Positions 15,321 through 51,138 of a stretch of DNA of 64,000 nucleotides are shown here, piece after piece (position 1 is the stretch's first letter; every line of letters starts with the position of its first letter). This DNA comes from Bryum argenteum. Its lineage: Eukaryota > Streptophyta > Bryopsida > Bryales > Bryaceae. The notes under the pieces were generated by a model, which was not told where the DNA came from, searched no databases, and saw only the letters and a program-made list of their open reading frames with translations. The stretch covers positions 1,389,263 to 1,453,262 of the forward strand of contig CM073330.1 in NCBI GenBank assembly GCA_037043015.1, in the 5' to 3' direction. The translations under genes were made by a program, and so were the position numbers.

Positions 15321-15367
<47 letters not shown>

Positions 15368-23560: not shown

Positions 23561-25722
23561 AGGATGATTCATAATTGCATGTAATAGTTACAAATGCGTG
23601 GCTCATACATAAACCCCTTACACATAGTCCATATGTCAAGACATACACAAATTCAACGCATGTACATATTACATATTTGACAGAAAAACATTGAATTTCT
23701 TTAAAAACCAACTTCATTACTTTTTAATATAAAGGGTGTTACCCTGAGTAAACAAGGAATTTTAGTAATTTGGTTGGTGGGCTCATAGATTTCAGGTTAC
23801 ATACTTGACTAATTATTTGTTACTTTTATGTTTTGAGAAAAAAAGGAATCGTATATTATTTACATATATTATACTCGTTGTTCATGTGATTGATAACTTT
23901 TAAACGTTTGACAAAAATCTTGAAATATCAATTGGTGATCTGTTTTACATATTACCTACATTATTAAAAACTTCTCTTACTAGTCATAAGAAACGTTCCA
24001 AACTCTTTAACATGAATTTCAACTTCAATTTTTATTTCAACTTTCAATTTCAAAATGTTTGTGTATTCAAAGTTTGACATCTTGGATGAAGGGTCAAAAC
24101 TTAAAAAACCATGGATGTTTCATTCCATGTTCATTTTTGACAAAATGTGCACTTTGGGTTTGAAATAATTATATGTTACGTACAAACAATACTTTTGAGA
24201 TCAGCACAAAATATAATGAATGAGATCAAATAGTTCCATACAAAATAGTAGAAATGTTAAGAAACCAAACCTTTCACAGAACACAAAGAATGTTTCTGAG
24301 ATTGGAATGATATAACTCATATCTTGAAAACTATATTTTCTCGCTTGAGAGTGAACAAAATTTACTGAATTCATTCAATTAATTCAAACGTTCAGAAATC
24401 AAAATCAAAATTCTTGGTCAAAAGAGAACAAATTTCTGGAGACTGGAATGAACCTAATCAATCAATCAATCAATAACATAGTACATATTACTTCAAATAA
24501 GGACAAAATTACTCAACCATTTTAAAACCATATTCTTTGTACACGCAAAAGAATGAGACTCTTGAGTGCGGTGAGCAACATTTGAAATCCATGTTCTTTG
24601 ATAATAGAAATACAAAATGTTCCAAACCCAAGTTCTTCGTTTGATAGAATTAAACTATTATGAAACCCAAAACTTAATATATTAGGATGACCCAATACTA
24701 ACGATTAAGCCCAAGCTTTCCTAAAAACACAAAATGGGTTTTAGAGGTTTTAGCAAGAGAAGGGTTCAATCAACTTTGGCCATTTCACCCTCACAGATAA
24801 AGAAGGAATCATGTGTTCAAATTTGATAAGTGAGTAGAAGATCAAGTGAACTTTGGGATCCTACCATTGGATCTTCTAAATAATGCTTAGATCGAGTTTT
24901 ATTAGTTCTAAAGTAGAAGAAGGTCAAACTATGATATAATTTAAGCTAGTTTTGCATCGAGAAAATTTTGGGGTTGAGATAACATCAATCTTGATTCAAG
25001 GTGTTCAAAAAGTTGCAAATACCATAGGTTTTAGAACATTTTCAAACATTTACAGTCAAAGAACAAATGAACAAGTACTTAATGAATGTTTGTCATTCAA
25101 GTATTCTTTAAAGGTCAAAAACCATCAAAAAGTGTGGTATTGGGAATGACAAGTGATATTGAAGTTAATAGTAAAAAAAACTGAACATACTCAATCACAA
25201 TATCATTGAGAATCATGACTAGGTATGCCTACAAATGAGACATAATTAGGTATGCCTACAAAATAGCACACCGGAAATCCGGAATGGAACATTTCGTAGG
25301 CGAAAATGGTATATCAACTAACGCTATTGCAACGAAATTGAGCTTAAATGCACATACTCAATAAAGATATCGTTCAGACCAAGCTACACACAAAATGATA
25401 TTTGCAAATTCAAACAACATAAAAATTGTGCTTGTGGTGTTTGTGCTCAATTCATAGTCTTTCAATGAAAATAGTGTTTGACACATGTTAGAGTGTCACA
25501 AATTAAATTCCTTTGAGGAAAGTAATTGATAATACAAACCATGAGATGATTCTATATCTCATCATGGTCGGTCCCTTGAACGGGAATAGACTAACTAGAT
25601 AGTCATAATCATATGGTTCTACTGATATTACATGTCTAGGTAGTCTATGCATTCAAAGTTTTTACTTCGGATGTCCCCTTTGGCCAGGAGCTCCTTCGGC
25701 CCATGACTCATCTCATGGCTCT

Positions 25723-25995
25723 TCAGAATCGGGACTTGAATGGAGCAAGTTTTCCAAGAAGAAATCGGCGCTTGGAAAACCGGTTTTCCATGACTTTGTA
25801 ATCATTCAGGCACACTGGCCAATTCGGAAAAACCGACGCATTTGCTGATTGAGTGGTAATGTAGTTGTCGTACACAACAACATGCGTGTTACAAATTGTA
25901 ACATACGAGGCCATGTCCACTTGGCAGTACTCATCTTCGTTTGAGTCTGCATCTTCAGCCATGCGGTCCAAAACCACGAATCCCTCCACCTCCAT
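25723..25995 (-). CDS. Array gene copy 1, unknown 90-aa protein
   Basis: Reads MEVEGFVVLDRM, an acidic segment (AEDADSNEDEY), the invariant core MASYVTICNTHVVVYDNYI then TTQSANASVFPNWPVC, and a basic tail ending KSRF. The start is the conserved MEVEG. The open frame continues to 26178, but upstream frames are not conserved between copies because of a one-base length difference, so the longer form is unlikely; MAEMEVEG (26004) is possible. Three of the four family cysteines are present and the last is replaced (NRFSK). No signal peptide or known domain is seen. In front of the gene the TATA-like motif is CATAAGAG (about 26166-26173), weaker than in copies 3 and 4. Family unknown; no function assigned. 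Confidence 0.75.
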   Translation of the reverse strand: MEVEGFVVLDRMAEDADSNEDEYCQVDMASYVTICNTHVVVYDNYITTQSANASVFPNWPVCLNDYKVMENRFSKRRFLLGKLAPFKSRF

Positions 25996-26189
25996 TTCAG
26001 CCATTGCCACTGTTGTAGAAGCAATCGTGGTACTACAAGGAGCTCGAAGAAATTTGGTGGAGGCACAAAGTATGAGAATGAAAAGGCTACGGGCGCTCTC
26101 CAAGGAACAAGGAACAGCAGGAGAGAGCGAAATGAAAATGATGAAAGGCGAATGGCTGCGATCCCCTCTTATGCCCATGTAATGGCCCG

Positions 26190-27010
26190 CGTAATAAATT
26201 TGTGTTTCCGAACCATGTCTCGTTGGGATGGAGAGTGTATGCAGGAGAGCTGTGCAGGTAGACGATCGAAACCGTCAGTACTCAGGAGCGCTGTGCAGAT
26301 AGACTGTGTAGATAGTGAGACTTAAAGCGCTGAAGAGGTGGCCGAGAGATGCTGTGATCGAAACCTCTTAATGACGTTGCCGTGTTTCATGGTCAGGGTA
26401 CCGCTGAGATCGATTGAAGGTGATTTTCGTTTACAAGATTCGGTTGTCCATGATTGTTTTCTCGAACAATCTACTACTTGGATACATGCCCAGAGGTACT
26501 ATCAGTTGGGCGGTTTAATCTGCGATGGACATTGTGTACCTTGCAATTGTTACATTGACGTAGCTTTCGAGCTTGAATCATGGCCACGCTTCGATCGTGA
26601 GAGATGATGGATCAGCATACAAGGACAGCATCGATAGAACCATATGAATCATCCAGATACAGACTATACATATTGGACTGGACTATTAATCAACAGCTTA
26701 TATGTCATGCCTTTCAAGTTGCAGGTGAGGTTTCAATGTGATATGACTGATATCTGGTGGTTCCATCTATCTAATATTCTTACAGCATATAGAATATTCA
26801 TATGTTTTATAGTTCAAAACGCAAATCTTCCTAGGGAAGCCAAAAGCCGTTTGAATTGACTGCATATGTATCTGCGAGAAAATTTTGTATCTCCCTTCAC
26901 TTGTCAGTCGCTCGAACGTGTAACATCTCTTGAATTTCTAGGTGGAATGAAAGCAATGCATGGGGCAAACCGGTAACTGCTAAATACAAGGTTGCAGAGA
27001 AAATTTGAGA
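26190..27010 (+). repeat. Unit 1 module M1
   Basis: First of three related modules in the unit. It starts in the flank shared with the minus gene and contains GAGATCGATTGAAGGTGA, ACTATCAGTTGGGCGG, CATTGTGTACC, GAATCATGGCCACC and CTCGAACGTGTAA. An open stretch at 26338-26607 (MAERCCDRNLLMTLPCFMV onward, 89 aa) is also open in unit 4 (44853-45176). In units 2 and 3 it is stopped by CGTTTATAAG in place of CGTTTACAAG. It is therefore probably not a constrained protein. It could be part of a transcript of unknown type. Confidence 0.6.
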
Positions 27011-27960
27011 GAAATTGAGGTAAATGGCATACAGTCCTATTACTTGTGTTGATATGCACCAGCTGCATGTGTAGTTTGGAGACCCAGAATGACGTTGTGG
27101 GTTGATTCCCAGGATGAAGGTGAGTCTCCTTTATCCGATTCGCTTGAACACGATTTGTTTCTGGATGTGTTCAGTAGTGAAACAATTTCATTATTAGTTG
27201 GATCGATGGTGAGAGGTTGTATCAGTTGGTCGGATTGCTTATTTGTGATGGGCAAAGTGTACCTGCTAATGACTGAGTCTTCATTTACGTAGCTTTTGCA
27301 CCTGAATCATGGCCACCTTACAACTGAAGGACTGCGAGGATAATTATAATTGTATGAATCAAACACATAAAAACAATACATGATCGACTTGGAGTATTTA
27401 TCAACAGCTTGATCATAACAGCTTGATCATATGTGCCTTTCAACCTGCAGGTGAGATTTCAATTTGATACATACATTCAACTGATCGATATGTGGTGGTG
27501 ACATATTACTAATTTTTCAGCAGATCGAACCCCGAAATATTCATAAATGATTTACAGGAATAAAATCTTTATCGTGAAGCAAAAGAGTTAGAGTTGAAAC
27601 CCGACAAAGTTGTATTTGATTCTCTTGTGTCACTGTCAGTCTCTCGAACGTGTAAGATCTCCTTATCTTTGGAAGAAAATGTTATCCTTAGACTCTGACT
27701 TCTCTCTTGTATGTTTTGTCTTATTCCCAGCGGGCCCGGCCGTCGACAGAAGAAAAAACACATGAATGTAATAGAACTAATAGTGGCATCGTCCACTGGA
27801 CGGCCCCGACAGATCCTCCGCTGTATGTAATTGAAGTACTGTAGTTTTCCTTCCCAAGGTCACTGAATTCCACTAGAGTCATGTTTCTTTCATTTCATTT
27901 TACGGGTAGTACTTTCGATTCGCCGATCTAGCAAAACTAGGATTGAGGTTCACGAAAAGA
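27011..27960 (+). repeat. Unit 1 module M2
   Basis: Diverged relative of M1, with matching landmarks in order: GATGAAGGTGAGTCT, TATCAGTTGG, GGGCAAAGTGTACCTGC, GAATCATGGCCACC, CAACCTGCAGGTGAG and CTCTCGAACGTGTAAGATCTCC. A 67-codon open frame (27089-27292, MTLWVDSQDEGESPL) is kept in units 1-3. Between units 1 and 3 three of four differences in it change an amino acid, and it is broken in unit 4, so coding constraint is not supported. It ends in a GC-rich patch around GGGCCCGGCCGTCGAC. Confidence 0.55.
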
Positions 27961-28179
27961 GCGTATATTATTAGCTAACGTCAGTCTGGTAGAGTGTGAG
28001 CTTCTCAAACAAGGCTATTATACAGTCAGTTGAGTAATAATTATTCACGAATAGCATGCACGATGATCGCTCTCTCCCGCTGGAATCAATGTACAGGAGG
28101 TTCGATTGGGCGATGCATCCATCAATAACTTTTCAATCAATATCAATGTCCAAATGGCACATGCAGGAAAGCTAATTTC

Positions 28180-28830
28180 AAGCAAAAAAGGTAACTAAAT
28201 GGCAGACAGCATCTCTAGTTTGGGGACAGATTATGACGATGCGGTGTTTCAGGTCCAGGGATACCGTTGAGAGTGAAGGTAACTGTCGATTATAATATTC
28301 GTTTGTACATGATATCTTTCTCGATGTGATGAGTAGCGAATTAATTTACTACTTGGATGGAAAGCTCGATTTACTATCAGGTGGGCTGTCTTCGAATAGG
28401 CAATGGGCAGAATGTACCTGCTACACAAGTGGCAGGGTCTTCATCACGTAGCTTTCGGACATGAATCATGACCACCTTCGATGGGGAATTCGGGAAGGAT
28501 GATGGATCACTATAGACACATATGCCGAATCGTAATGGTGCAGTTCAATGAGATGAGACACATGCACATCTCACATATCTAATCTTCCACTATCTGGAAT
28601 ACTCACAAATGTTCTACCACAGAATTTAGAACCTACTTCAAGAAAGCCTAGAGTTAGAAATTCCATTCTACTGAATTTGAACCAGAAAATAGTTAATTTC
28701 TCTCGACTGTTAGTCTCTCGAATTAGTAAGATCTCCTACATCCCAAGGCTGTATCAATGCATGATTGGGGCTAACGGGTAATTGATCATTATTTATACTG
28801 TTAGAGAAATACAAAGCATATGATGTTTTT
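28180..28830 (+). repeat. Unit 1 module M3
   Basis: Third and most diverged module: GGTCCAGGGATACCG, GAGTGAAGGTAACT, TGGGCAGAATGTACCTGC, GAATCATGACCACCTTCGAT, GTTAGTCTCTCGAA and AATGCATGATTGGGGCTAACGG correspond in order to segments of M1 and M2. Stops are frequent in all frames. Counterparts lie at about 34035-34640 and 40420-41060. Confidence 0.55.
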
Positions 28831-29105
28831 ATGCTAGGAATCGGCTTTTCCATGTTCTGAACATTTTTTTGTACATTGAACGTTTTGTCAAACTTGAATG
28901 CAAGTGTTACATGGGTATAATCAAATAACGTCTTCATAAGTGCTTCGGTTTACTAATTTGGTAAAAGCAATTCAACCATTAAATAAGAACAAAGTATGAT
29001 CTTATATGTTCTAGTTTCGTAATTGTTGTATTGCAGATGGCAAACCTTTCATGAGATATCATTTGTAAAGCTACTATGTGTAAAAGACACTAGACAGTGC
29101 TTTAA

Positions 29106-29590
29106 CCTTAAGAGATCCTTAAAACCCAAAAGGGGATTTGAGGTTCTCGGGAGAAGAAACTTCATTCAACCTTTAACCGTTATAATCTTTTAAGTGAAAA
29201 AGAATTTGCAGTTCAAATTTGACATGCAAGTAGATTATTAAGTTGACTATAAGATCTTATGGTTGGAACTTTCATAAATTGCTCAAATTGAGCTTTTCTC
29301 ATCCTGAAATACAAGAAGATCAATTTTAGTGGTAATTTCGGCAATTTTGCCTCAGGGATCTCAAAGGAGTAGAGTAAAAGTTTTGTTGATTAAGGAGGTA
29401 TAAGGTCAAAACTTTGGGATAAATAGCAAGGGCCATATTGATTCCTACCCACTCTTTCAAATTTCATAACTTTTATGGTATTTCAACAAGCTAAGTTGCA
29501 ATTTTGTTTGTCAAAAGAAAAAGACATGGCTCTTCAAAGTCCCAACCTTTTATTGACGATGTCGAATTTTTCATTACATACATGTAGGGG
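29106..29590. mobile_element. TTAA-flanked element family C, copy in unit 1 (485 bp)
   Basis: Bounded by TTAA at 29102-29105 and 29591-29594, with ends CCTTAAGAGATCC and GTAGGGG. It occupies the same place in the unit as the copies at 35167-35655 and 41568-42052, so it was present before the units multiplied. Its right end resembles that of family A (ATGGCTCTTCAAA then GGGGTTAA). No open frame of note. Confidence 0.6.
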
Positions 29591-31410
29591 TTAAGTGTTA
29601 AGGATTATGTTCACAAAACATTTGAAATGCTTTTTATGATAGGTAAGTTGTATTTAAATATATGAGTTACAAGAGATCACCGATAATGGTTCAAGGTCTT
29701 GATTCCAATCTATCAAACAAGGAAAAACGACAACTCTTGTATATGTAGAAAATTACAATAAAAATAATAATTATAATCAACAAAGTACAAAATCCTACTT
29801 CGTTTTGACATTAGTTCGATAGTGCAAAGGGTTGTTTTTATGGTTTATAGTGAATTCAAGTGTCTAATTTACCTTCCAAGAGAATATCCACCACGTCATT
29901 TTGAAAAATTGGAGGCTTGAGCACTCGTGTGCTACTGCCAACGACTAGATGCTTAAATGTGGGTCCAACCTCAACCAATTGTGTGAGGGCATTGAAATGC
30001 ATGATTAAGGATTGTGTGTTAAAGTCAACAACAAATGGGTGACACATAGACCCTTACATATAGTCCACATGTCATCACCCAAATATGGTCTAAGCATGTT
30101 CGTAATATATATTTGACACCCCATGTATGTAATACAAAATTGAACAAAAAAAATTCATGGCTCTTCAAGGTTTCAACCCTTTATCCTGAATGTGAGGACT
30201 CCAAAAGAAGGAATTAAGCATTAAAATTCATGTTCAAAAGTTTGAAACATTCCTAAGGATAATGAAGATGGAAGAGTCCTCAGGTTAAGAAAATAATATG
30301 AAAGATCAACAATAAATATTTTTGAATTTTGACATTTCAAGACTATCAATCACACAGTAAATAACAAATATCATATATGTAGATAGTTACAAGTGAACGT
30401 TTTTCTCAATAACTATATCAAAAGAGATAGGTACAAAACATAGTGTCTAATAACCGAATTATAGTTCGTATGACGATGATGAGATTCATCAATTCGGCAA
30501 TATAATATTTAACATTTCAGGAATTTATACCTTTGTTTAAGTTGTTACTTTCACATAGAACTAGATTCTAAAATTTTGGTTCGATGAATCTCAAACGTTC
30601 ACAAACCAAAATCTATGCCGGGAAGGGAACAACATTCTGAAGTTGGATACAAAAATAGTAAAAATGTTCCGAAACCATGCCTTTCACAGAACAAGGAAGA
30701 ATGTTTCTGAGCTTGGAATGATAAAATTCATATCTATAGCTGAGAGTGAACAAAATGTTTGAATTTATAAATGATATAGTTCAAACGTCCGGATGTCAAA
30801 ATCAAAATTCTTGATTAAAAGAGAACGAATTTCTCGAGACTGGCATGAATCTAATCAAACATTCAGAAACATATCCTTTGAACACGCACAGGAATGAAAA
30901 TCTTGAGTGCAGGTGAGCATCATTCAAGACATTTAGAAACTATGTTCTTTGATAAAAGAAATACAAGACGTTCCTAACCCAAATTCTTTGCTCAACAGAA
31001 ATAAAATAGTCCTAAATTCAAAACTTAATATACCAGGATGGGCTAAAATCAACGATTAATCGCTAATTTATCTTAGCGCTTTAAATCCGTTTGGAGGTTC
31101 ATGTGAGAAAAAGTGGACCTTTTATAATCTCACAAATTTATAAGAATCAAGTCTTCAAGTTTACAGTGTCACAAAATAATTCTTTTGTGAAATGCAATCT
31201 CATGGTACAAACCATGAACTGATTCTATATATGTTCCCTTGAACGGGAATGGGCTAACTAGGTAGCCATAATTATATGGTTCTAGTAATATCACATGTGT
31301 AGCTGGTTTAGCTAGTCTAGCTACATCCATCAGAAGTTTTTACTTCGAATGTGCCCCCTTTGGAAATGCACATGATTGAGCTCCTTCGGTCCATTATTGA
31401 TCATGGCTCT

Positions 31411-31692
31411 TCAGAATGGGGACTTGAATGAAGGAAGATTTCCAAGGTGAAATCGGCCCTTGGAACACCGCTTTGTCAGGTCTTCGGAATCATTCAAGCA
31501 CACTGGCCAATTCGGAAAAACCGACGCGTTTGCTATTTGAGTGGTAATGTAGTTGTCGTACACAACAACATGGGTGTTACATATCGTAACATATGAGGCC
31601 ATGTCCACTGTGCAGTACACATCTTCATTTGAGTTTGCATCTTCATTTGAGTTTGTCATGCGGTCCACAACCACGAATCCTTCCACCTCCAT
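31411..31692 (-). CDS. Array gene copy 2, unknown 93-aa protein
   Basis: MEVEGFVVVDRM is followed by the longest acidic segment of the four copies (a doubled SNEDANSNED), then YCTVDMASYVTICNTHVVVY and the rest of the core with QIANASVF in place of QSANASVF. All four family cysteines are present (YC, IC, VC, RC). In the core, most nucleotide differences from copy 1 are silent: Thr-His ACG to ACC, Thr ACA to ACG, Ile ATT to ATA, Ser TCG to TCA. The upstream motif is CATAAGAG at about 31859-31866. Family and function unknown. Confidence 0.8.
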   Translation of the reverse strand: MEVEGFVVVDRMTNSNEDANSNEDVYCTVDMASYVTICNTHVVVYDNYITTQIANASVFPNWPVCLNDSEDLTKRCSKGRFHLGNLPSFKSPF

Positions 31693-31879
31693 TTCAGGCA
31701 GTGCCAGTGTAGAAGGAATCGTGGTACTACAAGGAGCTCGAAGAAATTTGGTGGACGCACAAAGTAGAGAATGAAAAGGCTACGGGCGCTCTCCAAAGAA
31801 CAAGGAACAGCAGGAGAGAGCGAAATGAAAATAATGAAAGGCGAATGGCTGCGAATCCCCTCTTATGCCCATGTACTGG

Positions 31880-34640
31880 CCTGCGTAATAAATTTGTGTT
31901 TCCGGACCATGGCTCGTTGGGATGGAGAGTGTCCGCAGAAGCGCTGTGCAGGTAGACGAGAGGTGTGAGGATCGAATGGGAGCTATTCCGCTCTTATGCC
32001 CCGTTTCCCGCGTCGAAGGTTCGGGAAGGCGTGTTCGGTGGTGTAGATAGTGCGACTTAAAGCCGCTGAAGAGGCGGCCCAGAGATGCTGTGTTCGAAAC
32101 CGCTTAATGACGTTGCCGTGTTTCATGTCCAGGGTACCCCTGAGATCGATTGAAGGTGAGTTTCGTTTATAAGATTCGGTTGTTCATGATTGTTTTCTCG
32201 AACAATTTACTAGTACTTGGATTCATGGCCAAAGGTACTATCAGTTGGGCGGTTTATTCTGCGATGGACATTGTGTACCGTGCAATTGTTACATTGACGT
32301 AGCTTTCGAGCTTGAATCATGACCACCCTTCGATCGTGAGAGATGATGGATCAGCATACAAGGACTGCGTCGATAGAATCATACGAATCATCCAGATACA
32401 GACTTCACATGATCGACTGGAGTATTTATCAACAGGCCTAAAACTGATATATGGTTGTGTCATCTATCTTATATTCTTCCTGCATATAGAATATCCATAT
32501 GTTTTATAGTTCAGAACGCAAATCTTTGTAGGGAAGCCAAAAGTTAGACGTTTGAAATGACTGGATTTGTATCTGCGAGAAAAATCTGTTAAAAATTTGG
32601 GTATCTCTTCACTTGACAGTCGCGCGAACGCGGAAGATCTTCTGAATTTCAAGGTGGAATGAATCCAATGCATGGGGCTAACCGGTAACTGATATATACT
32701 AGGTTGCAGTGAAAATTGCAGAGAAATGAGGTAAATGGCATACAGTCCACATACATGTGTTGATATGCACCAGCTGCATGTGTAGTTTGGGGACGGAGAA
32801 TGACGTTGCACTCCAGGTTGATTCCCAGGATGAAGGTGAGTCTCGTTTATACGATTCGCTTGAACACGATTTGTTTCTGGATGTGTTCAGTAGTGAAACA
32901 ATTTCATTACTAGTCGGATCGATGGTGAGAGGTAGTATCAGTTGGCCGGATTGCTTATTTGTGATGGGCAAAGTGTACCTGCTAATGACTGAGTCTTCAT
33001 TTCCGTAGCTTTTGCACCTGAATCATGGCCACCTTCGATCGTGAGTAATGCTGGATCACCTCACAAGGACTGCGAGGGTATAATCATATGAATCAAACAT
33101 ATACAAACTACACAAGATCGACTGGAGTATCTATCAATAGCTTAATTATATGTGGCTTTCAACCTGCAGGTGAGATTTCAATCTCATACATACATTCAAC
33201 TGATAATTATGTGGTTGTGTCATATTACTAGTTTTTCAGCAGATCGAACCCCGAAATATTCATAAATGATTTACAGGAATCAAAGCTTCATCGTGAAGCA
33301 AAAGTTGGAGTTTAAACCCGAAGAAGTTGTATTTCACTGCCAGTCTCTCGAACGTGTAAGATCTCCTTATCTTTGGAAGACAATGTTACTCGTCTCTGAC
33401 TTCTCTCTTGGATGATTCTGTGCTTGCAATCAGAGAGGAATGTATTCTGATCTCAATGTTTTTTTAACCCCTCAATTTTCTTGTTGTTTTGGGGGAAAGA
33501 AGTCTCAAAACTGGCTTTTCTTTTTTTTCTTTTTTATCCTTTTTATTATTATTATTATTTTACAGTCCTGTGCACTCCCAGCTGGTCCGGCCGTCAACAC
33601 AAGAAACAACACATGTAATAGAACTAATAGTGGCATCGTCCACTGGACGGCCCCGACAGATTCTCCGCTGTATGTTTTTGAAGTAATGTAGTTTTCCTTC
33701 CCAAGGTCACTGAATTCCACTACAGTCATGTTTCTTTCATTTTACGGGTAGACTAAGTACCTTCGAATAGCCGATCTAGCAAAACTAGGATTGAGGTTAA
33801 TGAAAAGAGCGTAATTATATTAATAGCTAACGTCAGTCTGGTAGAGTGTGAGCTTCTGAAACAAGGCTATAATACAGTCGTTTGCACAATTCACTAATAG
33901 CATGCACGATGATCGTTCTCTCCGCTGGAATCAATAATGTACTGGAGGTTCGATTGGGCGATGCACCCATCAATAACTTTTCAATCAATATCAATGTCCA
34001 AATGGCACATGCTGGAAGCTGATTTCAAGAAAACAAGGTAACTAAATGGCAGACAGCATCTGTAGTTGCGGTGTTTCAGGTCCAGGGATACCGCTGAGAG
34101 TGAAGGTGACTTTCGATTATAAGATTTGTTTGTACATGATATCTTCTTTGACGTGATGAGTAGCGGATCAATTTACTTCATGGATCGATGACTCGATTTT
34201 CTAGCAGTTGGGCTGTCTTCTAATATGCGATAGGCAGAATGTACCTGCTACAGTACTAGTGGCAGGGTCTTCATCACTTAGCCTTCGGACATGAATCATG
34301 ACCACCTTCGATCGGGAATTCGGGAAGGATGATGGATCACACTAGAATCGTACAGGTGCAGTCCAATGAGATTAGGCACATGCACATCTCACATATCTAA
34401 TCTTCCACAATTTGGAATACTCACATATGTTCTACCACAAAATTTCTTCAAGAAAGCCTACGGTTCTTAATTCCATTCTACTGAATTTGAACCAGCAAAT
34501 AGTTGATTTTTCTCGATTGTTAGTCTCTGGAATGTGTAAGATCTCCCACATCTCAAGGTTGTATCAATGCATGATTGGGGCTAACGGGTAATTGATCATT
34601 ATTTATACTGTTAGAGAAATGCAGAGCATATTATTTATGT
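31880..34640 (+). repeat. Unit 2 modules M1, M2 and M3
   Basis: M1 is about 31880-32710, M2 about 32711-33900 and M3 about 34035-34640, in the same order as unit 1. M2 carries about 165 bp that unit 1 lacks (about 33412-33575), ending in a long pyrimidine tract and ATTATTATTATTTTACAG, which looks like a 3' splice site. The flank 31970-32080 has CCCCGTTTCCCGCGTCGAAGG, shared with unit 4 rather than unit 1. Confidence 0.55.
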
Positions 34641-35166
34641 TTTTATGCTACTGTAGGAAGATTTCGGCTTTTCCATGTTGTGAACATTTTTTTTGTACAT
34701 TGAACTTTTTGTCAAACTTAAGTGCAAGTGTTACATAAGTATGATCAAATAACGTCCTCATAGGTGCTTTGGTTTATTAGTGTGGTAAAAGAAATTCAAC
34801 CATTAAGTACAAAGTATAATCTTATATGTTTTAGTTTTGTGATTGTTGTACCTCAGATGACAAACCTTTCGTGAGATTACATTTTTAAAGTGTGGACAAT
34901 GGCCATTCACATTTTTTCACTCTTATCGTAATTCTTGGTATATACTTCAAATGTGAAATTATGAAATATGACATGAAGGATTGAAGGGGGGGAGGGTTTC
35001 AGTGTACTTACACCATTAATATTTCAATGACAAATTGGGGAATATCCAAGTGCTAGATGTTTTGCTCAATTTAACTATACAATGATTGTCACTTATGATT
35101 TGATAATAAATCTCTTATACAAGAGTGCCTCAAAACCACTATGCATAGTAGACACTAGTGCTTTAA

Positions 35167-35655
35167 TCCCTAGAGAATTTTACAACCTGAAAGGAGATTT
35201 GAGGGTTTTCGAAAGGAATTATTTTCAGTTAATTTTTGACCATAATAACCTTACAAATGGAAAAGAATCAATGGTTCAAAGTTGACATGCAAAAAAATTA
35301 TCAAATTAACTACAAAATCCTACGGTTGTATCTTTCAAAATTTCTCAAATCGAGCTTTATTGGTCCCCAAATACAAAGAGGTCAAAGCTAGTGGTAAATT
35401 AGGCAATTTTGCATCAAGGATTAGAATGAAAACTTTGCAGCTCAAGGGGGTATAAGGTTAAAACTTTGGCCTAAATAGCAAGGGCTACATTGATTCTTGT
35501 GGACGAGCCCACTCCCTCAAATTACATAACTTTTATAAACTTCCAACAAGCCAAGTTGCAGCTTTGTTTGTCAAAAGATATTAAAGACATGGCTCTTCAA
35601 AGTCCCAACCCTTGGTTCAAGATATCAAATTCTTGACATCACATACCTATAGGGG
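35167..35655. mobile_element. TTAA-flanked element family C, copy in unit 2 (489 bp)
   Basis: Flanked by TTAA at 35163-35166 and 35656-35659; ends TCCCTAGAG and CCTATAGGGG. Positional counterpart of the unit 1 and unit 3 copies, with more internal divergence. Confidence 0.6.
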
Positions 35656-36368
35656 TTAAGTGTTGAAGATCATGTTTACAAAAAATTGAAACATTCTTTA
35701 TGATAGTTTAGTTGTATTTATATATTAATTACAAGTATTCATCAAATAATGTTTCAAGATCTTATCATAGGATAATTCCAAACTCTCAAACAAGAAAAAG
35801 TGACATTTCTTGTATATGTAGATAAATACAATCAAACAAATTGTGTGATCAACAAAATACAAAATTCTACTTTATTTTAAATTAGTTCAATAGTGCAAAG
35901 AGTTATATTTATCGTTGATAGTTAATTCAAGTGTCTAATTTACCTTCCAAGAAAATATCAACCACATTCATTTATAGAATAGGAGGATTGAGCTCTCTCC
36001 TATGCCACTGCCAACAAATAGATGCTTAAGCACTCAAAATGTGGGTGCAACCTCAACCAATTGTTTGAGGGCATTGAAATGCATGATTAAGGATTGCATG
36101 TAAAAGTCAACAACAAATGGGTGACACATAGCCCCTTACGTACAGTCCACATGTCATCAGACAAATATGGTCTAAGCATGTTCGTAATATATATTTGACA
36201 ACCCATGTGTGTAATACAAAATTTCTCAAAATTAAACAAAAAAAAGTCATGGTTCTTGAAGGTTCCAACCCTTTATCCTAAATGTGAGGACTCAAAGAAA
36301 ATAGGATAAGTGTTAAAATCCATGGTTCTTCAATGTTTCAACCCTTTATCCTATATGTGAGGATTTGA

Positions 36369-36447
36369 CCATCTTCAAACAAAGTATTTTCAACAGTTGC
36401 ACCATGAATAGCAGATAAAAGAACAGCTCCCAAAACTCGATCAACAC
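36369..36447 (-). other. psbD: Nuclear fragment of chloroplast psbD (unit 2)
   Basis: On the minus strand about 80 bp translate as [20 protein letters not shown] plus FEDG. This matches the photosystem II D2 protein around [20 protein letters not shown]. The flanking sequence is ordinary array repeat, so this is a plastid DNA scrap in the nucleus and not a gene. It is more diverged from D2 than the unit 3 copy. Confidence 0.8.
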
Positions 36448-37805
36448 CCGAAAATGGGATTAGTGTTAAAATTCATGGTTCTTCAAGGTTTCAACCCTTT
36501 TTTCTAAATGTGAGGACTCCAAGAGAAGGGTGAAGTGTTAAAATTCATGTCCAAAACTTAAAAACACCCCTAAGGATAAGGAAGATGGTTCTAATAATAT
36601 GTAAAATGATCATCAATTGATATTTTCAGATTTTGGCAAACGTTTCGAAACTATCAATCACATAAATAACAAATATCATATATGTAGGTAGATACAATAG
36701 AATTTTTTTCTCAATCAACTGATATTGAAAGCAAACCGAACCGGTCCGGCACAGAATAATTATGTAAAACGTTCCACAAAATGAGTTTCTTCAGACAAGA
36801 TTTTTAAGATGGGTACAAGACATAATGTCTAATAACCAAATTATAGTTCATATGACGATGATAAGATTCTTCAATTTGGCAATACTTTATTTCACATTTC
36901 AGGAATGTATACCTCTGCTTAAGTTCTTACTTGAATCACAAAGAACTAGATTCTAAAACTTTGGTTCCATAAATCTTCAAAGTTCAGAAATCAAAATCTA
37001 TGCCGGGAAGAGAACAAACATTCTAAAGTTTGATACAAAATAGTAGAAATGTTCTGAAACCAAGCCTTTCGCAGAACAAGGAAGAATGTTTCTGAGCTTG
37101 GAATGATAAACCTCATATCTTCAGCTGAGAGTGAACAGTATGTTTGAATTATTTTATAATTGATATAGTTCAAACGTCCAGATGTCAAAATAAAAATTCT
37201 TGATAAAAAGAGAACGAATTTCTCTGAGACTGGCATGAATTTAATCAAACATTCAGAAACATATCCTTTGAACACGCACAGGAACGAAAATCTTGAGTGC
37301 GGTGAGCATCATTCAAGACATTTTGAAACCATGTTCTTTGATAAAAGAAATACAAGACGTTCCCAACCCAAATTCGTTGCTGAACAGAAATCAAATATTC
37401 TTAAATTCAAAACTTATACCAAGATGGCCTAAAATCAAAGTTTAATTGCTAATTCATCTTAGCGCTTCAAATGGGTTTGAAGTTCCCTTGTGAGAAAAAG
37501 TGGACCTTTTATAATCTCACAAATTTAGAAGAATCAAGTCTTCAAGTTTACAGTGTCACAAAATATTTCTTTTGTGAAAAGCAATCTGATGATAGTCATG
37601 ATACAAACCATGAATTGACTCTATATCTGTTCCCTTGACAGGGAATGGGCTAACTAGATAGCCATAATTAAATGGTTTTAATACTATCACATGTGTAGCT
37701 GGTCTAGCTAGTCTAGCTACGTACATCCATCCATCAAAAGTTTTCACTTCGAATGTGCCCCATTTGGAAATGCACATGAATGAGCTCCTTCAATCCCTGA
37801 CTGCT

Positions 37806-38087
37806 TCAGAATCGGGACTTGAATGCCGCAGGAAATTTTCCAAGGTGGAATCGGCGCTTCAAACACCGGTCTTTCACGCCTTCGTAATCATTCAGGCACG
37901 CTGGCCAATTCGGAAAAACGGACGCGTTTGCTGATTGAGTGGTAATGTAGTTGTCGTACACAACAACATGCGTGTTACAAATTGTAACATACGAGGCCAT
38001 GTCCACTGTGCAGTACTCATCATCATTTGATTCTGCATCTTCATTTGAGTCCATGCGGTCCACAACCACAAATCCTTCCACCTCCAT
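37806..38087 (-). CDS. Array gene copy 3, unknown 93-aa protein
   Basis: MEVEGFVVVDRM, acidic SNEDAESNDDEY, then CTVDMASYVTICNTHVVVYD, the invariant core to FPNWPAC, and a tail RRFHLGKFPAAFKSRF. Four cysteines are present (YC, IC, AC, RC). The acidic segment differs from the other copies by whole codons only. A clean TATA box, TATAAGAG on the minus strand, lies at 38255-38262, about 170 bp before the ATG. The frame upstream of MEVEG is not conserved with copy 1, which supports this start. Family and function unknown. Confidence 0.8.
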   Translation of the reverse strand: MEVEGFVVVDRMDSNEDAESNDDEYCTVDMASYVTICNTHVVVYDNYITTQSANASVFPNWPACLNDYEGVKDRCLKRRFHLGKFPAAFKSRF

Positions 38088-38254
38088 GTCAGCCAGTGCC
38101 AGTGTAGAGGCAATCGTGGTACTACAAGGAGCCGGAAGAATTATGGTGGAGGCACACAGTAGAGAATGAAAAGGCAAGGGGCGCCCTCCAAGGAACAAGG
38201 AACAGCAGGAGAGAGCGAAATGAACATAATGAAAGGCGAATGGCTAACAATCCG

Positions 38255-38262
38255 CTCTTATA
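38255..38262 (-). promoter_or_regulatory. TATA box of array gene copy 3
   Basis: Minus-strand TATAAGAG within GGCTATAAGAGCGG, about 170 bp upstream of the start codon. Copy 4 has the same motif at 44654-44661. Copies 1 and 2 have CATAAGAG at the same place. Confidence 0.5.
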
Positions 38263-38299
38263 GCCATTGATGTAATGTCCCCCGTAATAATTTTGTGTA

Positions 38300-41060
38300 T
38301 CCGAACCATGGCTGGTTGGGATGGAGAGTGTAAGCAGAAGCGCTGTTCAGGTAGACGAGAGGTGTGGAGATCGAAGGTTCGGGAAGGCGTGGCCGCGTCG
38401 AAGGTTCGGGAAGGCGTGGTTCAGTGGTGTAGATAATGCGACTAAAAGCGCTGAAGAGGCTACCGAGAGATGCTGTGTTCGAAACCTCTTAATGACGTTG
38501 CTGTGTTTCAGATCCAGGGTACCGCTGAGATCGATTGAAGGTGAATTTCGTTTATAAGATTCGGTTGTCCATGACTTTTTTCTCGAACAATTTACTTCTT
38601 GGATACATGGCCTAAGGTACTATCAGTTGGGCGGTTTAATCTGCTATGGCCATTGTGTACCTTGCAATTGTTACATTGACGTAGCTTTCGAGCTTGAATC
38701 ATGGCCACCCTTCGATTGTGAGAGATGGATCAGCATACAAGGACTGCGTCGATAGAATCATATGAATCATCCAGATACAGACTATACATGATCGACTGGA
38801 GTATTAATCAACAGCTTATATGTCATGCCTTTCAAGTTGCAGGTGAGGTTTCAATGTGATATGACTGATATCTGGTGGTTCCATCTATCTAATATTCGTA
38901 CAGCATATAGAATATTCATATGTTTTATAGTTCAAAACGCAAATCTTCTTAGGGAAGCCAAAAGCCGTTTGAATTGACTGCATTTGTATCTGCGAGAAAA
39001 TTCTGTATCTCTCTTCACTTGTCAGTCGCTCGAACGTGTAACATCTCTCGAATTTCTAGGTGGAATGAAATCAATGCATGGGGCAAACCGGTAACTGCTA
39101 AATACAAGGTTGCAGAGAAAATTTGAGAGAAATTGAGGTAAATGGCATACAGTCCTATTACTTGTGTTGATATGCACCAGCTGCATGTGTAGTTTGGAGA
39201 CCCAGAATGACGTTGTGGGTTGATTTCCAGGATGAAGGTGAGTCTCCTTTATACGATTCGCTTGAACACGATTTGTTTCTGGATGTGTTCAGTAGTGAAA
39301 CAATTTCATTACTAGTTGGATCGATGGTGAGAGGTTGTATCAGTTGGCCGGATTGCTTATTTGTGATGGGCAAAGTGTACCTGCTAATGACTGAGTCTTC
39401 ATTTACGTAGCTTTTGCACCTGAATCATGGCCACCTTCGATCGTGAGTGATGCTGGATCTTCTCACAAGGACTGCGAGGGTATAATCATATGAATCAAAC
39501 ATATACAAACTACACAAGATCGACTGGAGTATCTATCAATAGCTTAATTATATGTGGCTTTCAACCTGCAGGTGAGATTTCAATCTCATACATACATTCA
39601 ACTGATAATTATGTGGTTGTGTCATTTAACTACTTTTTCAGCACATCGAACCCCGAAATATTCATAAATGATTTACAGGAATCAAAGCTTCATCGTGGAG
39701 CAAAAGTTGGAGTTTAAACCCGAAGAACTTGTATTTCACTGCCAGTCTCTCGAGCGTTTAAGATCTCCTTATCTTTGGAAGACAATGTTACTCGTCTCTG
39801 ACTTCTCTCTTGGATGATTCTGTGCTTGCAATCAGAGAGGAATGTATTCTGATCTCAATGTTTTTTTAACCCCTCAATTTTCTTGTTGTTTTGGGAGAAA
39901 GAAGTCTCAAAACTGGCTTTTCTTTTTTCTTTTTTATCCTTTTTATTATTATTATTATTTTACAGTCCTGTGCACTCCCAGCTGGTCCGGCCGTCAACAC
40001 AAGAAACAACACATGTAATAGAACTAATAGTGGCATCGTCCACTGGACGGCCCCGACAGATTCTCCGCTGTATGTTTTAGAAGTACCGTAGTCTTCCTTC
40101 CCAAGGTCACTGAATTCCACTAGAGTCATGTTTCTTTCATTTTACGGGTAGACTAAGTACTTTCAAATCAGCGATCTAGCAAAATCTAGGTTCATGAAAA
40201 GAGCGTATATTAATAGCTAACGTCAGTCTGGTAGAGTGTGAGCTTCTGAAACAAGGCTATTATGCAGTCCTTTGAATATTTCACGAATAGCATGCACGAT
40301 GATCGTTCTCTCCGCTGGAATCAATGTACTGGAGGTTCGATTGGGCGATGCATCCTTCAATAACTTTTCAATCAATATCAATGTCCAAATGGCACATACA
40401 ATGAGCTGATTTCAAGAAAACAAGGTAACTAAATGGCAGACAGCATCTCAGTGTAGTTGCGGTGTTTCAGGTCCAGGGATACCGCTGAGAGTGAAGGTGA
40501 CTTTCGATCATAAGATTCTTTTGTACCTGATATCTTCTTTGACGTGATGAGTAGCGGATCAATTTACTTCATGGATCGATGACTCGATTTTCTAGCAGTT
40601 GGGCTGTCTTCAAATATGCGATGGGCAGAATGTACCTGCTACAGTACTAGTGGCACTCCAGGGTCTTCATCACGTAGCCTTCGGACATGAATCATGACCA
40701 CCTTCGATCGGCAATTCGGGAAGGATGATGGATCACTATAGCAAGACTGCGAGATATAACTATGTGAATCGTACATGTGCAATCCAATGAGATTAGGCAC
40801 ATGCACATCTCACATATCTAATCTTTCAGAAAATTGGAGTACTCACAAATGTTTTACCACAGAATTTAGAACCTACTTCAAGAAAGCCAACAGTTTGTAA
40901 TTCCATTCTACTGAATTTGAACTAAAAAATAGTTCATTTTTCACAACTGTTAGTCTCTGGAATGTGTAAGATCTCCCACATCTCAAGGATGTATCAATGC
41001 ATGATTGGGGCTAACGGGTAATTGATCATTATTTATACTGTTAGAGAAATACAAAGCATA
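38300..41060 (+). repeat. Unit 3 modules M1, M2 and M3
   Basis: M1 about 38300-39130, M2 about 39131-40200, M3 about 40420-41060. M1 and the first part of M2 are nearly identical to unit 1. From about 39440 onward the sequence is nearly identical to unit 2, including the 165-bp extra segment and pyrimidine tract (about 39815-39980). The upstream flank has a doubled GTCGAAGGTTCGGGAAGGCG at about 38370-38420. Confidence 0.6.
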
Positions 41061-41567
41061 TTGTGTTTTATGCTGGGAACCGTCCTTTCCATGTCTGAAC
41101 ATTGTTTTTTGGTACAGTGAACTTTTTGTCAAACTTCAGTGCAAGTGTTACATACTTACGTAAGTATAATCAAATAACGTCCTCATAGGTGCTTCGGTTT
41201 ATTAGTGTGGTAAAAGCAATTCAACCATTGAGTACAAAGTATAATCTTATATGTTTTAGTTCTGTGATTGTTGTACCTCTTGATGGCAAACCTTTCATGA
41301 GATTACATTTTTAAAGTGTGGACAATGGCTGATCACATTTTGTCACTCTTATCGTGATTCTTGGAATATACTTCAAATGTGAAATTATGAAATTTGATAT
41401 GAAGGGGGTTTGATTAAACTTACATATTCGATAAATTGGGGAATACCCTAGTACTGAAGGTTTTTCTCAATATAGCTATACAATGATTGCCACCAATGAA
41501 CTGATAATAAATCTCTAATCCAAGAGTGTCTCAAAGCTACTATGTGTAAAAGACACTAGTGCTTTAA

Positions 41568-42052
41568 CCCCAAGAGATCCTTAAAACCCAAAAGGGGATT
41601 TGAGGGTTCTCACAAGAAGAAACTTCACTCAACCTTTTAACCGTTATAATCTTTTAAGTGAAAAAGACTTTGCAGTTCAAATTTGACATGCAAGTAAATT
41701 AGTTGACTATAAGATCCTATAGTTGGATCTTTCAAAAATTGTTCAAATTGAGCTTTTTTGGTCGTGAAATACAAGGAGATCAAATTTAGTGGTAATTTAG
41801 GCAATTTTGCCTCAAGGATCTCTAAGGATTAGAATAAAAGTTTTGCTCCTCAAGGAGGTTTAAGTTTAAAGCTCTCGCCTAAATAGCAAGGGCCATATTG
41901 ATTCCTACCCACTCTTTCAAAATATATAACTTTTATAGACTTTCAACAAGCCAAGTTGCAATTTTGTTTGTCAAGAAAAAAAGGACATGGCTCTTCAAAG
42001 TCTTAACCCTTGATTGACGATGTCAAATTTTGTCATCACATACCTATACGGG
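41568..42052. mobile_element. TTAA-flanked element family C, copy in unit 3 (485 bp)
   Basis: TTAA at 41564-41567 and 42053-42056; ends CCCCAAGAGATCC and CCTATACGGG. The left end resembles that of the element at 51139 (CCCCTAAAGATCC) and the right end resembles family A, placing it in the same group. Confidence 0.65.
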
Positions 42053-42767
42053 TTAAGTGATAAAGATTATGTTCACAAAACATTTGAAACACTTTTTATG
42101 AAAGGTAAGTTGTATTTATATATTTATTACAAGAGATCACCAATAATGGTTCAAGGTCTTACCATAGGATAATTCCAAACTATCAAACAAGAAAAAACGA
42201 CATCTCTTGTATATGTAGATGATTACAATAAAATAAAATAAAAATCAACAAAGTACAAAAACCTACTTCGTTTCGGCATTAGTTTGATATTAGAAAGGTT
42301 GTTTTTATGGTTTATAGTGCATATACGTGTCTAATTTTCTTTCCAAGAGAATATCTACCACGTTATTTTGAGGAATTGGAGGCTTGAGCACTCTCCTATG
42401 CCACTACCAACAACTAGATGCTTAAGCACTCAAAATGTGGGTGCAACCTCAACCAATTGTTTTAGGGCAATCAGATGCATGATTAAGGATTGTGTAAAAG
42501 TCAACAACAAATGGGTGACACATATCCCCTTACATATAGTCCACATGTCATCACACAAATATGGTCTAAGCATGTTCGTAATATGTATATTTGACACACC
42601 ATGTATGTAATACAAAATTTCTCAAAATTAAAGAAAACAAAGTCATGCCGGTTCTTCAAGGTTCCAACCCTTTATCCTAAATGTGAGGACTTGAAGAAAA
42701 TGGGATAAGTGTTAAAATTTATGGTTCTTCAATGTATCAAACCTTTATCCTGAATGTGAGGACTCGA

Positions 42768-42846
42768 CCATCTTCGAACAAAGTGTTTTCAACAGTTGCA
42801 CCATGAATCGCACAAATAAGAGCAGCTCCCAAAACTCGAGCATCAC
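42768..42846 (-). other. psbD: Nuclear fragment of chloroplast psbD (unit 3)
   Basis: Minus-strand translation reads [20 protein letters not shown] then EDG, almost the D2 protein sequence. It sits at the same place in the unit as the copy at 36369-36447. Unit 1 lacks it. Confidence 0.85.
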
Positions 42847-44210
42847 CCGAAAATGGGATAAGTGTTAGAATTCATGGTTCTTCAAGGTTTCAACCCTTTA
42901 TCCTAATGTGAGGACTCCAAGAGAAGGGGTGAAGTGTTAAAATTCATGTTCAAAAGTTTGAAACACTCCTTGGAATAAGGAAGATGGTTCTAATAATATA
43001 TAAAAAGATCAACAATTAAAATTTTAAGATTTTGACAAACATTTTGAAACTATCAATCACATAGTTACATAACAAAAATCATATATGTAGATAGTTACAA
43101 CTGAACGTTATTATCAATCAATTGATATTGAAAAAATACCGAGTCGGCGGTCCGGCACAGAATATGTAAAACGTTCAACAGAATCAGTTCTTTCAGACAA
43201 GATTCCTGAGATTGGTACAAAACATAATGTCTAATAACAGAATTACAGTTCATATGACGATGATGAGATTCTTCACTTCGGCAGTATATTATTTGACATT
43301 TCAGGAATGTATACCTCTGTTTGAGTTGATACTTTCACATAGAACTAGATTCTAAAATTTTGGTTCGATGAATCTCAAACGTTCACAAACCAAAATCTAT
43401 GACAGGAAGAGAACAAACGTTCTAAAGTTTGATACAAAATATTAGAAATGTTCCGAAACCATGCCTTTCACAGAACAAGGAAGAATGTTTCTGAGATTGG
43501 AATGATATAACTCATATCATCAGCTGAGAATGAACAAAATGTTTGAATTTATAGATGATAGATTTCAAACGTCCAGATGTCAAGATCAAAATTCGTGATT
43601 AAAAGAGAACGAATTTCTCGGGACTGGCATGAATCTAATCAAACATTCAGAAACATAGTATTGTACATATTACTTGATTTTAGGACGAAATTAATTTAGC
43701 ATTAGAAACCATATCTTTTGTACACAGAGATAAAAATCTTGAGTACGGTGAGCATCATTCATAACATTTTGAAACCATGTTCTTTGATAAAAGAAATACA
43801 AGACGTTCCCAATCCAAATTCTTTGTTCAACAGAAATAAAATACTCCTAAATTCAAAACTTATACCAGGATGGCCTAAAATCAACAATTAATCGCTAATA
43901 TATCTAAGCGCTTGAAATGGGTTTGGGGGCCCCCTGTGAGAAAAATTGGATCTTTTATAATCTCACAAATTTAGAAGAATCAAGTCTTCAAGTTTGCAGT
44001 GTCACAAAAGAATTCTTTTGTGAAAAGCAATCTGATGATAGTCTATATTTGTTCCCTTTACGGGGAATGGGCTACCTAGATAACCATAATAAAATGGTTT
44101 TAATACTATCACATGTGTAGCTGGTCTAGCTACATCCATCAGAAGTTTCTACTTAGAATGTGCCCCATTTGAAAATGCACATGATTGAGCTCCTTCAGTC
44201 TCTGACTGCT

Positions 44211-44486
44211 TCAGAATCGGGACTTGAATGCCACAGGAAATTTTCCAATGTGAGATCGGCGCTTGGAACACTTGTTTTTCAAGCCTTCGTAATCATTCTG
44301 GCACACTGGCCAATTCGGAAACACCGACGCGTTTGCTGATTGAGTTGTTATGTAGTTGTCGTACACAACAACATGCGTGTTACAAATTGTAGCATATGAG
44401 GCCATGTTCACTGTGCAGTACTCATCTTCATTTGAGTTGAATTCTGCCGCCATGCGGTCCACAACCACGAATCCCTCCACCTCCAT
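44211..44486 (-). CDS. Array gene copy 4, unknown 91-aa protein
   Basis: MEVEGFVVVDRM, acidic AAEFNSNEDEY, CTVNMASYATICNTHVVVYD, core to FPNWPVCQNDYEG, tail ending VAFKSRF. An in-frame ATG five codons upstream (MALAD) exists only in this copy. Four cysteines are retained. Silent changes again appear in the core (Ile-Thr ATTACC to ATAACA); replacements are Asp to Asn and Val to Ala. TATAAGAG lies at 44654-44661. The unit behind it is truncated, yet the gene is whole. Confidence 0.8.
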   Translation of the reverse strand: MEVEGFVVVDRMAAEFNSNEDEYCTVNMASYATICNTHVVVYDNYITTQSANASVFPNWPVCQNDYEGLKNKCSKRRSHIGKFPVAFKSRF

Positions 44487-44699
44487 GTCAGCCAGTGCCA
44501 TTGTAGAAGCAATCGTGGTACTACAAAGAGCTGGAAGAATTATGGTGGAGGCACACAGTAGAGAATGAAAAGACTACGGGCGCTCTCCAAGGAACAAGGA
44601 ACAGCACGAGAGAGCGAAATGAACATAATGAAAGGCGGATGGCTAGCAATCCGCTCTTATAGCCATTGATGTAATGTCCCGCCGGCGTAATAATTTTGT

Positions 44700-45779
44700 G
44701 TATTCGAACCATGGCTCATTGGGATGGAGAGTGTATGCAGAAGCCCTGTGCAGGTAGACGAGAGGTGTGAAGATCGAATGGGAGCTATTCCGCTCTTATG
44801 CCCCGTTTCCCCGCGTCGAAGGTTCGGGAAGGCGTGTTCGGTGGTGTAGATAGTGCGACTTAAAGCCGCTGAAGAGGCGGCCGAGAGATGCTGTGTTCGA
44901 AACCTCTTAATGACGTTGCTGTGTTTCATGTCCAGGGTACCGCTGAGATCGATTGAAGGTGAGTTTCGTTTACAAGATTCGGTTGTCCATGATTGTTATC
45001 TCGAACAATCTACTTCTTGGATACATGCCCAGAGGTACTATCAGTTGGGCGGTTTAATCTGCGATGGCCATTGTGTACCGTGCAATTGTTACATTGACGT
45101 AGCTTTCGAGCTTGAATCATGGCCACCCTTCGATCGTGAGAGACGATGGATCAGCATACAAGGACTGCGTCGATAGAATCATATGAATCATCCAGATACA
45201 TACAGACTATACATGATTGGCTGGAGTATTTATCAACAGCTTGTATGTCATGCCTCTCAAGTCGTAGGTGAGGTTTCAATGTGATATCACTGATATATGG
45301 TTGTGTCATCTATCTAATATTCTTCCACCATATAGAATATTCATATGTTCTATAGTTCAGATAGCAAATCTTCGCAGGGAAACCCAAAGTTAGACGTTTG
45401 AAATGACTGGATTTGTTTCTGCGAGAAAAATTTGTATCTCTCGTCACTTGTCAGTCGCTCGAACGTGTAAGATCTCCTGAATTTCTAGGTGGAATGAAAC
45501 CAATGTATGGGGCTAACCGGTAACTGATAAATACAAGGTTGCAGAGAAAATTGCAGAGAAATTGAGGTAAATGGCATACAGTCCTAGTACTTGTGTTAAG
45601 TGTGCACCAGCATGTATACTTTGGAGACAGAGAGAGATGTTGGGGGTTGATTCTCAGGATGAAGGTGAGTTTCGTTTATAGGATTTGCTTGAACACGGTT
45701 TCCATCAGGATGTGTTCAGTAGTGAAACAATTTCATTACTAGTTGGATAGATGGCGAGAGGTAGTATCAGTTGGCGGGT
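44700..45779 (+). repeat. Unit 4, module M1 and truncated M2
   Basis: M1 about 44700-45560 keeps the open stretch seen in unit 1. M2 is cut at about 45779 within TATCAGTTGGCGGGTTGC, after which sequence of family A begins. The counterpart of the M2 open frame is not open here. Confidence 0.6.
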
Positions 45780-45782
45780 TGC

Positions 45783-49538: not shown

Positions 49539-49889
49539 CAACTCTTGTGTAGAATCCATTCGTATTGAACAGCATTGTTATCCATCAAGATATCTTTAGT
49601 CTTTCTGATTATATTCTCATATACTAGATTTGAAATATCATTAATCCCTAAAAGCGAAGCACTTTAGTGACAGCAAGCCTCATGTGAAATTTGTACACTA
49701 AGTTTTTTTCCTATAATTTTGGAAAATCCAACCAAAGGATCTTTGTTTATCGCTATTTAATTAGTCTATCCACCAAATTTTATTAAATTTGACGCTACAT
49801 CACAATGTGTTCAAATTCAACTTTAAGGTTTTAATACTCTGGTTCAACCTTGTATGCATTTGGATTTGGATTAGGTATTTTTGGAGTTA
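49539..49889. other. AT-rich stretch without recognised genes
   Basis: Lies between element A1 and the left end of the large palindrome. Only short open frames are present. Confidence 0.4.
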
Positions 49890-50823
49890 CATTCCTATGC
49901 ACACATTATGCGTATCGCGATTCGTTGCACTACAACGACCAATGGACAAACATTATTATATAGATACCCTTAGAATCCTTAGATGGGGATGGAATGTTCA
50001 TTGTCTTTTGGGCATAGGAGATAAATACTGAATACTTTCACCTTCAAACAATCCTTTGTGGAGTCATTGTGTCCAATTTGGTTTTTGAGAAACCCTTGAA
50101 CAAGTAGGTTATTGTTCAAATCCATCCAAATCAATCTACCCACCAACAAGTTTTGATCAAATTTCACCATACGGATCTTGAGATTAACTTACTTGATATG
50201 CCCCTTTTTTTTTGGGGGGGGGGGTACAACCAACATTATTCTTCAACGCAAATAAACCTAAATTGGACTTCACTCGCCTTCACGAGAGGGGGTAGGTAGT
50301 CTCGAACTTGCCTTTCCAAGACAAGGTTGTCGTGTATGACACACTTTTTTTTTAATGTTTGTTTAAATTGTCGTGTTCGACATGTTAAAACAGACATCGC
50401 GAGAATGTCGACCATACTAGAAAATGTATACTAAAAATTAGGAACATCTCACTCGTCTCATTTCGTCTACCTCTTCCGAGGGTGAATGTTTGTTTGACGT
50501 TTGCAAGTGTATCGCATAAGGCAACCCTGTAGGTTAGGTAGTCTCGAACTCGCCTTTACGGAAGAGGGATAAATAATAATCTCTAGAGAGGAGAGGGGTT
50601 AGTGGTATCGTCATTTAGCATGTTGAGACGTAGACGCATACACGTCATGAATAGGTCGAACACATTCATTACCGACCCCGATATCTGGTATAGCTTAGAG
50701 CTGATATTCTCCTTTCCAATACACTCTGAAGAAATTGAATAAAATATGGAGCCTTTTCGGCAGTGTGGGTTCCATCAAGCAGGATCCGACATTTCAGAGC
50801 CTCGGACGGGCACTCGGCGGCCT

Positions 50824-50897
50824 GTCTGGTTGGTGTAGTCGGTTATCACGCTAGTCTCACACACTAGAGGTCCCCAGTTCGAACCTGGGATCAGACA
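50824..50897 (+). tRNA. trnV-CAC: tRNA-Val (CAC), left-arm copy
   Basis: A 74-nt cloverleaf without intron. Acceptor arm GTCTGGT/ATCAGAC, D arm with GGTGTAGTCGGTTATCAC, anticodon stem CTAGT/ACTAG around loop CTCACAC (anticodon CAC), and T arm CCCAG-TTCGAAC-CTGGG. A discriminator A follows. A T5 pol III terminator (CTTTTT) begins a few bases downstream. Nuclear-type valine tRNA with intact box A and box B regions, so probably functional. Confidence 0.93.
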
Positions 50898-50957
50898 ATC
50901 TTTTTCGAATAACCGGATCCCGGGACCGGTCCTTGGATCGGACTCTTTTGGAAGCGT

Positions 50958-51085
50958 GAGGTCCCACTTCGAACCTGGGATCAGAAGTTTTCAGAAATAT
51001 GAGGTCCCGAGCTCGGCCTTACAGTAGAAATCTGAGGCCCTTTTCGAAAATATGAGGTCCTCAGCTCGAACCTGGAATTAGACAT
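50958..51085 (+). repeat. Degenerate copies of the tRNA-Val 3' half
   Basis: After the tRNA gene, GAGGTCCCACTTCGAACCTGGGATCAGA (in part, 50958-50985) and GAGGTCCTCAGCTCGAACCTGGAATTAGACA (in part, 51054-51085) repeat its variable and T-arm region, with a weaker copy between them at about 51001. They look like tandem duplications of the tRNA 3' half. They lack the 5' half and are not tRNA genes. The same set is mirrored in the right arm. Confidence 0.7.
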
Positions 51086-51138
51086 TTTTGGAAATACGAT
51101 CAATTGGAATTTGAAGGATTAAAGATTCTTGGTTTTAA

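Follow-up and report, generated by a model that had tools for sequence, protein, structure and literature searches.

Four minus-strand open reading frames (ORFs) in a 64,000-nucleotide stretch of the Bryum argenteum genome (C10:1389263-1453262, referred to below as the window) quite likely represent a small protein-coding gene, consisting of one exon and restricted to its lineage, whose four tandem copies arose when a segment of about 6 kb was duplicated repeatedly. An earlier note, made from the letters alone, had proposed an unrecognised tandem protein family at this site. This is well supported: all four frames lie where the note had placed them, each running from ATG to TGA, and searches of Pfam, NCBIfam, PHROGs, and the PDB returned nothing significant. 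Evidence for purifying selection is strong for the central 33 codons, while the C-terminal third is without constraint or evolving faster. A family without known relatives can in this way be identified as genuine within a single genome, since the tandem copies record selection.

Four open reading frames at a single locus

The proteins encoded by the four ORFs are 73-81% identical to one another. Each has an acidic head, followed by a core that hardly varies (MASYVTICNTHVVVYDNYITTQSANASVFPNWP) and a basic tail that changes fast. By inspection, there are four cysteines per protein in most copies, and no signal peptide is evident in the encoded proteins. Genome-wide searches with both DNA and protein (258.8 Mb, 25 contigs) returned only the four copies in the window, and the core used alone as a query against the whole 258.8-Mb genome gave no match beyond these four. 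The ORF, its 5' flank, and a family of plus-strand repeats beside it are all confined to this locus, except that a single diverged copy of the plus-strand repeat, in inverted orientation and with no ORF match, lies 28 kb beyond the window. Coordinates are collected in Table 1.

Table 1. Positions of the duplicated units, ORFs, and associated repeats, numbered from the first letter of the window unless stated otherwise
Feature	Position	Strand	Remarks
Duplicated unit 1	24232..30423	.	self-comparison and alignment; without some pieces of units 2 and 3
Duplicated unit 2	30424..36806	.	self-comparison and alignment
Duplicated unit 3	36807..43207	.	self-comparison and alignment
Duplicated unit 4, partial	43208..45782	.	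self-comparison and alignment
ORF copy 1	25723..25995	-	90 codons + stop; core MASY..NWP 25816-25914
ORF copy 2	31411..31692	-	93 codons + stop; core 31504-31602
ORF copy 3	37806..38087	-	93 codons + stop; core 37902-38000
ORF copy 4	44211..44486	-	91 codons + stop; core 44307-44405
5' flank of ORF copy 2	31693..31900	-	divergence 0.097 over matching columns
Plus-strand repeat, unit 1	26415-26743, 27115-27319, 28274-28478	+	
Plus-strand repeat, unit 2	32140-32435, 32831-33140, 34101-34317	+	
Plus-strand repeat, unit 3	38525-38861, 39233-39590, 40492-40782	+	
Plus-strand repeat, unit 4	44943-45309	+	
Diverged inverted plus-strand repeat copy	L028 7870-8544; C10:1481 kb		28 kb beyond the window

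A tandem segmental duplication carries the ORFs

Self-comparison of the window placed all four ORFs within a single tandem segmental duplication with a unit of about 6 kb, a feature that had been overlooked in the earlier note. The first two copies are spaced 5.7 kb apart and the others about 6.4 kb, the first spacing being shorter because unit 1 lacks some pieces. In the alignment, the closest pair of units shifts along the array (24232-45782), with copies 1 and 3 being 96-99% alike over about 32420-33030 and copies 1 and 2 about 95% alike directly upstream of the ORF. This shifting of the closest pair suggests exchange between units, either by gene conversion or by unequal crossing-over. Dispersed repeats are present within the unit at about 33448-33521 (at least 35 of at least 42 among the matches listed) and at about 35160-35432 (at least 38 of at least 44 among the matches listed). 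An 82-bp stretch of unit 2 (36368-36449) has 95% identity to C12:80199-80280, well above the other dispersed matches found alongside it.

The plus-strand repeats are roughly 200-350 bp long, occur up to three times per unit, and are about 70% alike. Nothing else in the unit is as well conserved as the first of these copies (pairwise divergence 0.060), and a box, GAATCATGRCCAC, is common to the 10 copies in the window and the diverged inverted copy. A structured RNA or hairpin precursor was rejected as an identity for these repeats, with fold z scores of -1.76, -0.95, and +0.61 on the plus strand and -1.74 on the minus strand, and a consensus fold with an energy of -9.61 to which covariation contributed a term of only -0.4. 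No RNA family matched the repeat. A second protein gene is not supported either, the frames being broken in most copies and the windows reaching p of about 0.016-0.027, uncorrected.

Several other features are found in the window. An immune-receptor locus with TIR, NB-ARC, WHD_ROQ1, and LRR domains occupies 13216-17126, some 8 kb away from duplicated unit 1, its set of domains pointing to a land plant, and an array of repeats of about 29 bp lies at 18099-18951. An inverted repeat (49866-51138 and 54187-55455, arms 87% alike) carries a tRNA-Val (CAC) in each arm, at 50823-50898 on the plus strand and 54427-54502 on the minus strand. A 15-bp minisatellite of 9.2 copies (548-685) lies within an open frame at 407-811.

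Frame retention and codon use

The frame retention and core pattern of the four ORFs are more than chance. We simulated the neutral decay of an ORF like copy 3 at rates derived from the flanks (divergence 0.116; 0.0091 indels per site). All four copies remained intact in 0, 6, 0, and 13 of 3000 runs (0-0.43%) under four parameter sets, and an ORF of at least 88 codons was kept in four copies in none of 3000 simulated 1.9-kb segments, with the qualification that the star tree used in these simulations ignores shared branches and gene conversion and is thus somewhat too strict. Indels within the ORF are all multiples of three in the six pairwise comparisons (9; 3, 6; 3; 3, 3; 3, 9; and 6). Outside the ORF, where runs of at most 30 bases were counted, 49 of the 199 pairwise indels are multiples of three, over pairs that are not independent.

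Codon scores were trained on 3425 codons from nine P450 exons in this genome. With the full score the ORFs beat 588 of 588 local noncoding windows, and with a score restricted to synonymous codon choice copies 1, 3, and 4 again exceeded all 588 and copy 2 exceeded 586, a lead that is due in part to the G+C content of the ORFs, which is higher than that of their surroundings and inflates the comparison. The ORFs scored below all nine training exons. Their codon use resembles that of coding sequence more than that of the noncoding DNA around them.

Selection along the protein

Maximum likelihood codon models gave very different results for different parts of the protein. Over the whole ORF omega was 0.64 (likelihood ratio test, p=0.13), over the first 63 codons it was 0.26 (p=4e-4), over the 33-codon core 0.088 (p=9e-5), and over the final 31 codons it rose to 3.1 (p=0.04 before correction). 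Since the core had been picked post hoc, we applied two controls, a scan of windows across the unit and a conditioned neutral simulation. In the six-frame scan of open windows the core came out first by approximate p in both sets, with 1.6e-4 among 481 four-copy windows (runner-up 0.016) and 0.002 among 944 three-copy windows (runner-up 0.016). The simulation required an open frame and scored whichever window of the ORF was best; the observed best window was reached in 0 of 20,000 runs, and the ratio for the whole ORF was reached in 14.7% of them (p=0.147). Purifying selection, which the earlier note had tentatively attributed to the family as a whole, is therefore found in the core and is not significant for the complete ORF, and a dN/dS well below 1 is seen over the first two thirds only.

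The silent character of the differences in the core is also apparent from direct counts. Within the MASY..NWP block of 33 codons, non-silent nucleotide changes number 0-3 per pair of copies and silent ones 2-6, which bears out the original description of a block almost unchanged with mostly silent differences. Between copies 1 and 2 the single Ser to Ile replacement (two nucleotide changes) was described correctly, as was the silent ATTACC to ATAACA in copy 4, but copies 1 and 2 differ by five silent changes rather than four. At codon positions 1, 2, and 3, the numbers of variable columns are 1, 2, and 9 in the core, 6, 5, and 8 in the head, and 11, 12, and 5 in the tail. Of the six frames across the core, only that of the ORF is both stop-free and conserved. 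The case for a protein is thus strong for the core and moderate for the head.

Conservation of the core as DNA or RNA, in the form of a regulatory element or a structured RNA, would have a counterpart in the neighbouring plus-strand stretch, whose conservation without a common open frame shows that noncoding constraint does occur in the unit. However, third positions make up 9 of the 12 variable columns of the core, the folding of the ORF strand does not surpass that of shuffled sequences (z -0.10), and Rfam has no match at gathering score in the unit; we regard a noncoding role for the core as barely credible.

The nearest rival to a single-exon gene is a larger spliced gene to which the core contributes one exon, the tail being intron or untranslated sequence and for that reason unconstrained. 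The drop from strong constraint in the core (omega 0.09) to an omega of 3.1 in the tail would fit such a gene, as would the distribution of variable columns in the tail, which is the reverse of a coding pattern, and the tail frame stays open by chance in 4-7% of simulations. Against this, the border between core and tail is without a consensus donor as judged by eye, and its sequence varies among the copies (CCAGTGTGC; CCAGCGTGC in copy 3). The tail is moreover open in the same frame in the four copies, with a common stop and in-frame indels, and no other windows of the unit have a comparable codon signal. We consider a spliced gene of this sort unlikely.

Divergence of the ORFs and their flanks

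The claim that the flanks of the ORFs had drifted proved mostly wrong. On average, pairs of copies diverge by 0.116 in the ORF and by the same 0.116 in the shared flank, and the 5' flank is closer still (0.097), with a plus-strand stretch around 32080-32400 at 0.060. The 3' flank is more diverged (0.208), chiefly owing to copy 1; among copies 2-4 only, the differences amount to 21 of 197, 23 of 171, and 15 of 171 positions. As the DNA of the ORF is conserved no better than its surroundings, the argument for selection lies in the pattern of changes and not in their number. The 5' flank of copy 2 is likely to include a putative leader and promoter. A scan for bacterial-type promoters found no match, using bacterial models that are unsuited to plant DNA.

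This equality of ORF and flank counts against a gene, together with the non-significant omega of the whole ORF, the omega above 1 in the tail, the codon scores lower than those of the training exons, and the failure of the searches to find a homologue elsewhere in the genome or a known family. An ORF without function, open by chance and carried along by a recent segmental duplication, would leave much the same picture of an entire unit duplicated, flanks as similar as the ORF, and an overall omega not significantly below 1. Such an ORF would seldom survive in the retention simulations and would not be expected to produce the core result (0 of 20,000), so that this explanation is already disfavoured and in our estimate very improbable.

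A proposed small gene family

The four-ORF family is probably a real gene of its lineage, judging from the features of its sequence described above. Under this interpretation, repeated duplication of the segment of about 6 kb would have amplified the gene to four tandem copies, and the ORFs would be transcribed and translated. Function would reside in the core, most likely as a small binding element with cysteines within an intracellular protein, and the tail may be under relaxed constraint or may adapt each copy to a different partner. A more elaborate version, which we offer as speculation with rather little probability, is that of a lineage-born family with a new small core domain under purifying selection and an adaptively diverging tail, situated near a TIR-NB-ARC-LRR locus and possibly shaped by conflict. 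If the family is expressed, the pairing of a fixed core with a tail whose omega exceeds 1 would provide a small test case for the gain of function in young proteins.

Relatives and comparison with known systems

Searches for relatives returned matches at chance level at best. Pfam gave no match at E up to 1, and at E up to 10 only DUF7660 (E 0.13, in 1 of 4 members), which is at chance level; NCBIfam gave none. The best PHROGs match was phrog_16096 (E 0.072, next 0.34), and in the PDB there was no match by sequence and a best profile match of 4tmd (E 0.73), both again at chance level. Scans of prokaryotic and viral contigs produced 35 and 25 pattern matches, with none confirmed, in what is a narrow test since the patterns were taken mostly from the head. 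Strings of the core peptide were not found mentioned in the literature. A structure model built from the four sequences with AlphaFold2 was uninformative (pLDDT 48.6, pTM 0.30). In lacking relatives in the family libraries and among solved structures, the family shows one of the marks of an orphan gene. Orphan small gene families are common, and this is an ordinary kind of finding that leaves the general picture unchanged.

Among known families, Self-incomp_S1 (S-protein homologue, PF05938) is similar in comprising small, tandemly expanded plant proteins, with expansions in some mosses. The four-ORF family differs in that it does not match the Self-incomp_S1 profile, DUF7660 in one member being its sole Pfam match at E up to 10, and in having no evident signal peptide. 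For the moss Niphotrichum japonicum, one paper describes an expansion of Self-incomp_S1 small proteins and counts 10,019 of 26,898 genes as exclusive among 11 mosses (PMC10619864). If expressed, the ORFs described here would join the many genes that are exclusive to individual plant lineages, as one more small family. They resemble plant orphan small-protein genes in being short, in having a single open frame and local tandem copies, and in lacking relatives in the libraries searched; a difference is that the four paralogues permit a test of selection from one genome.
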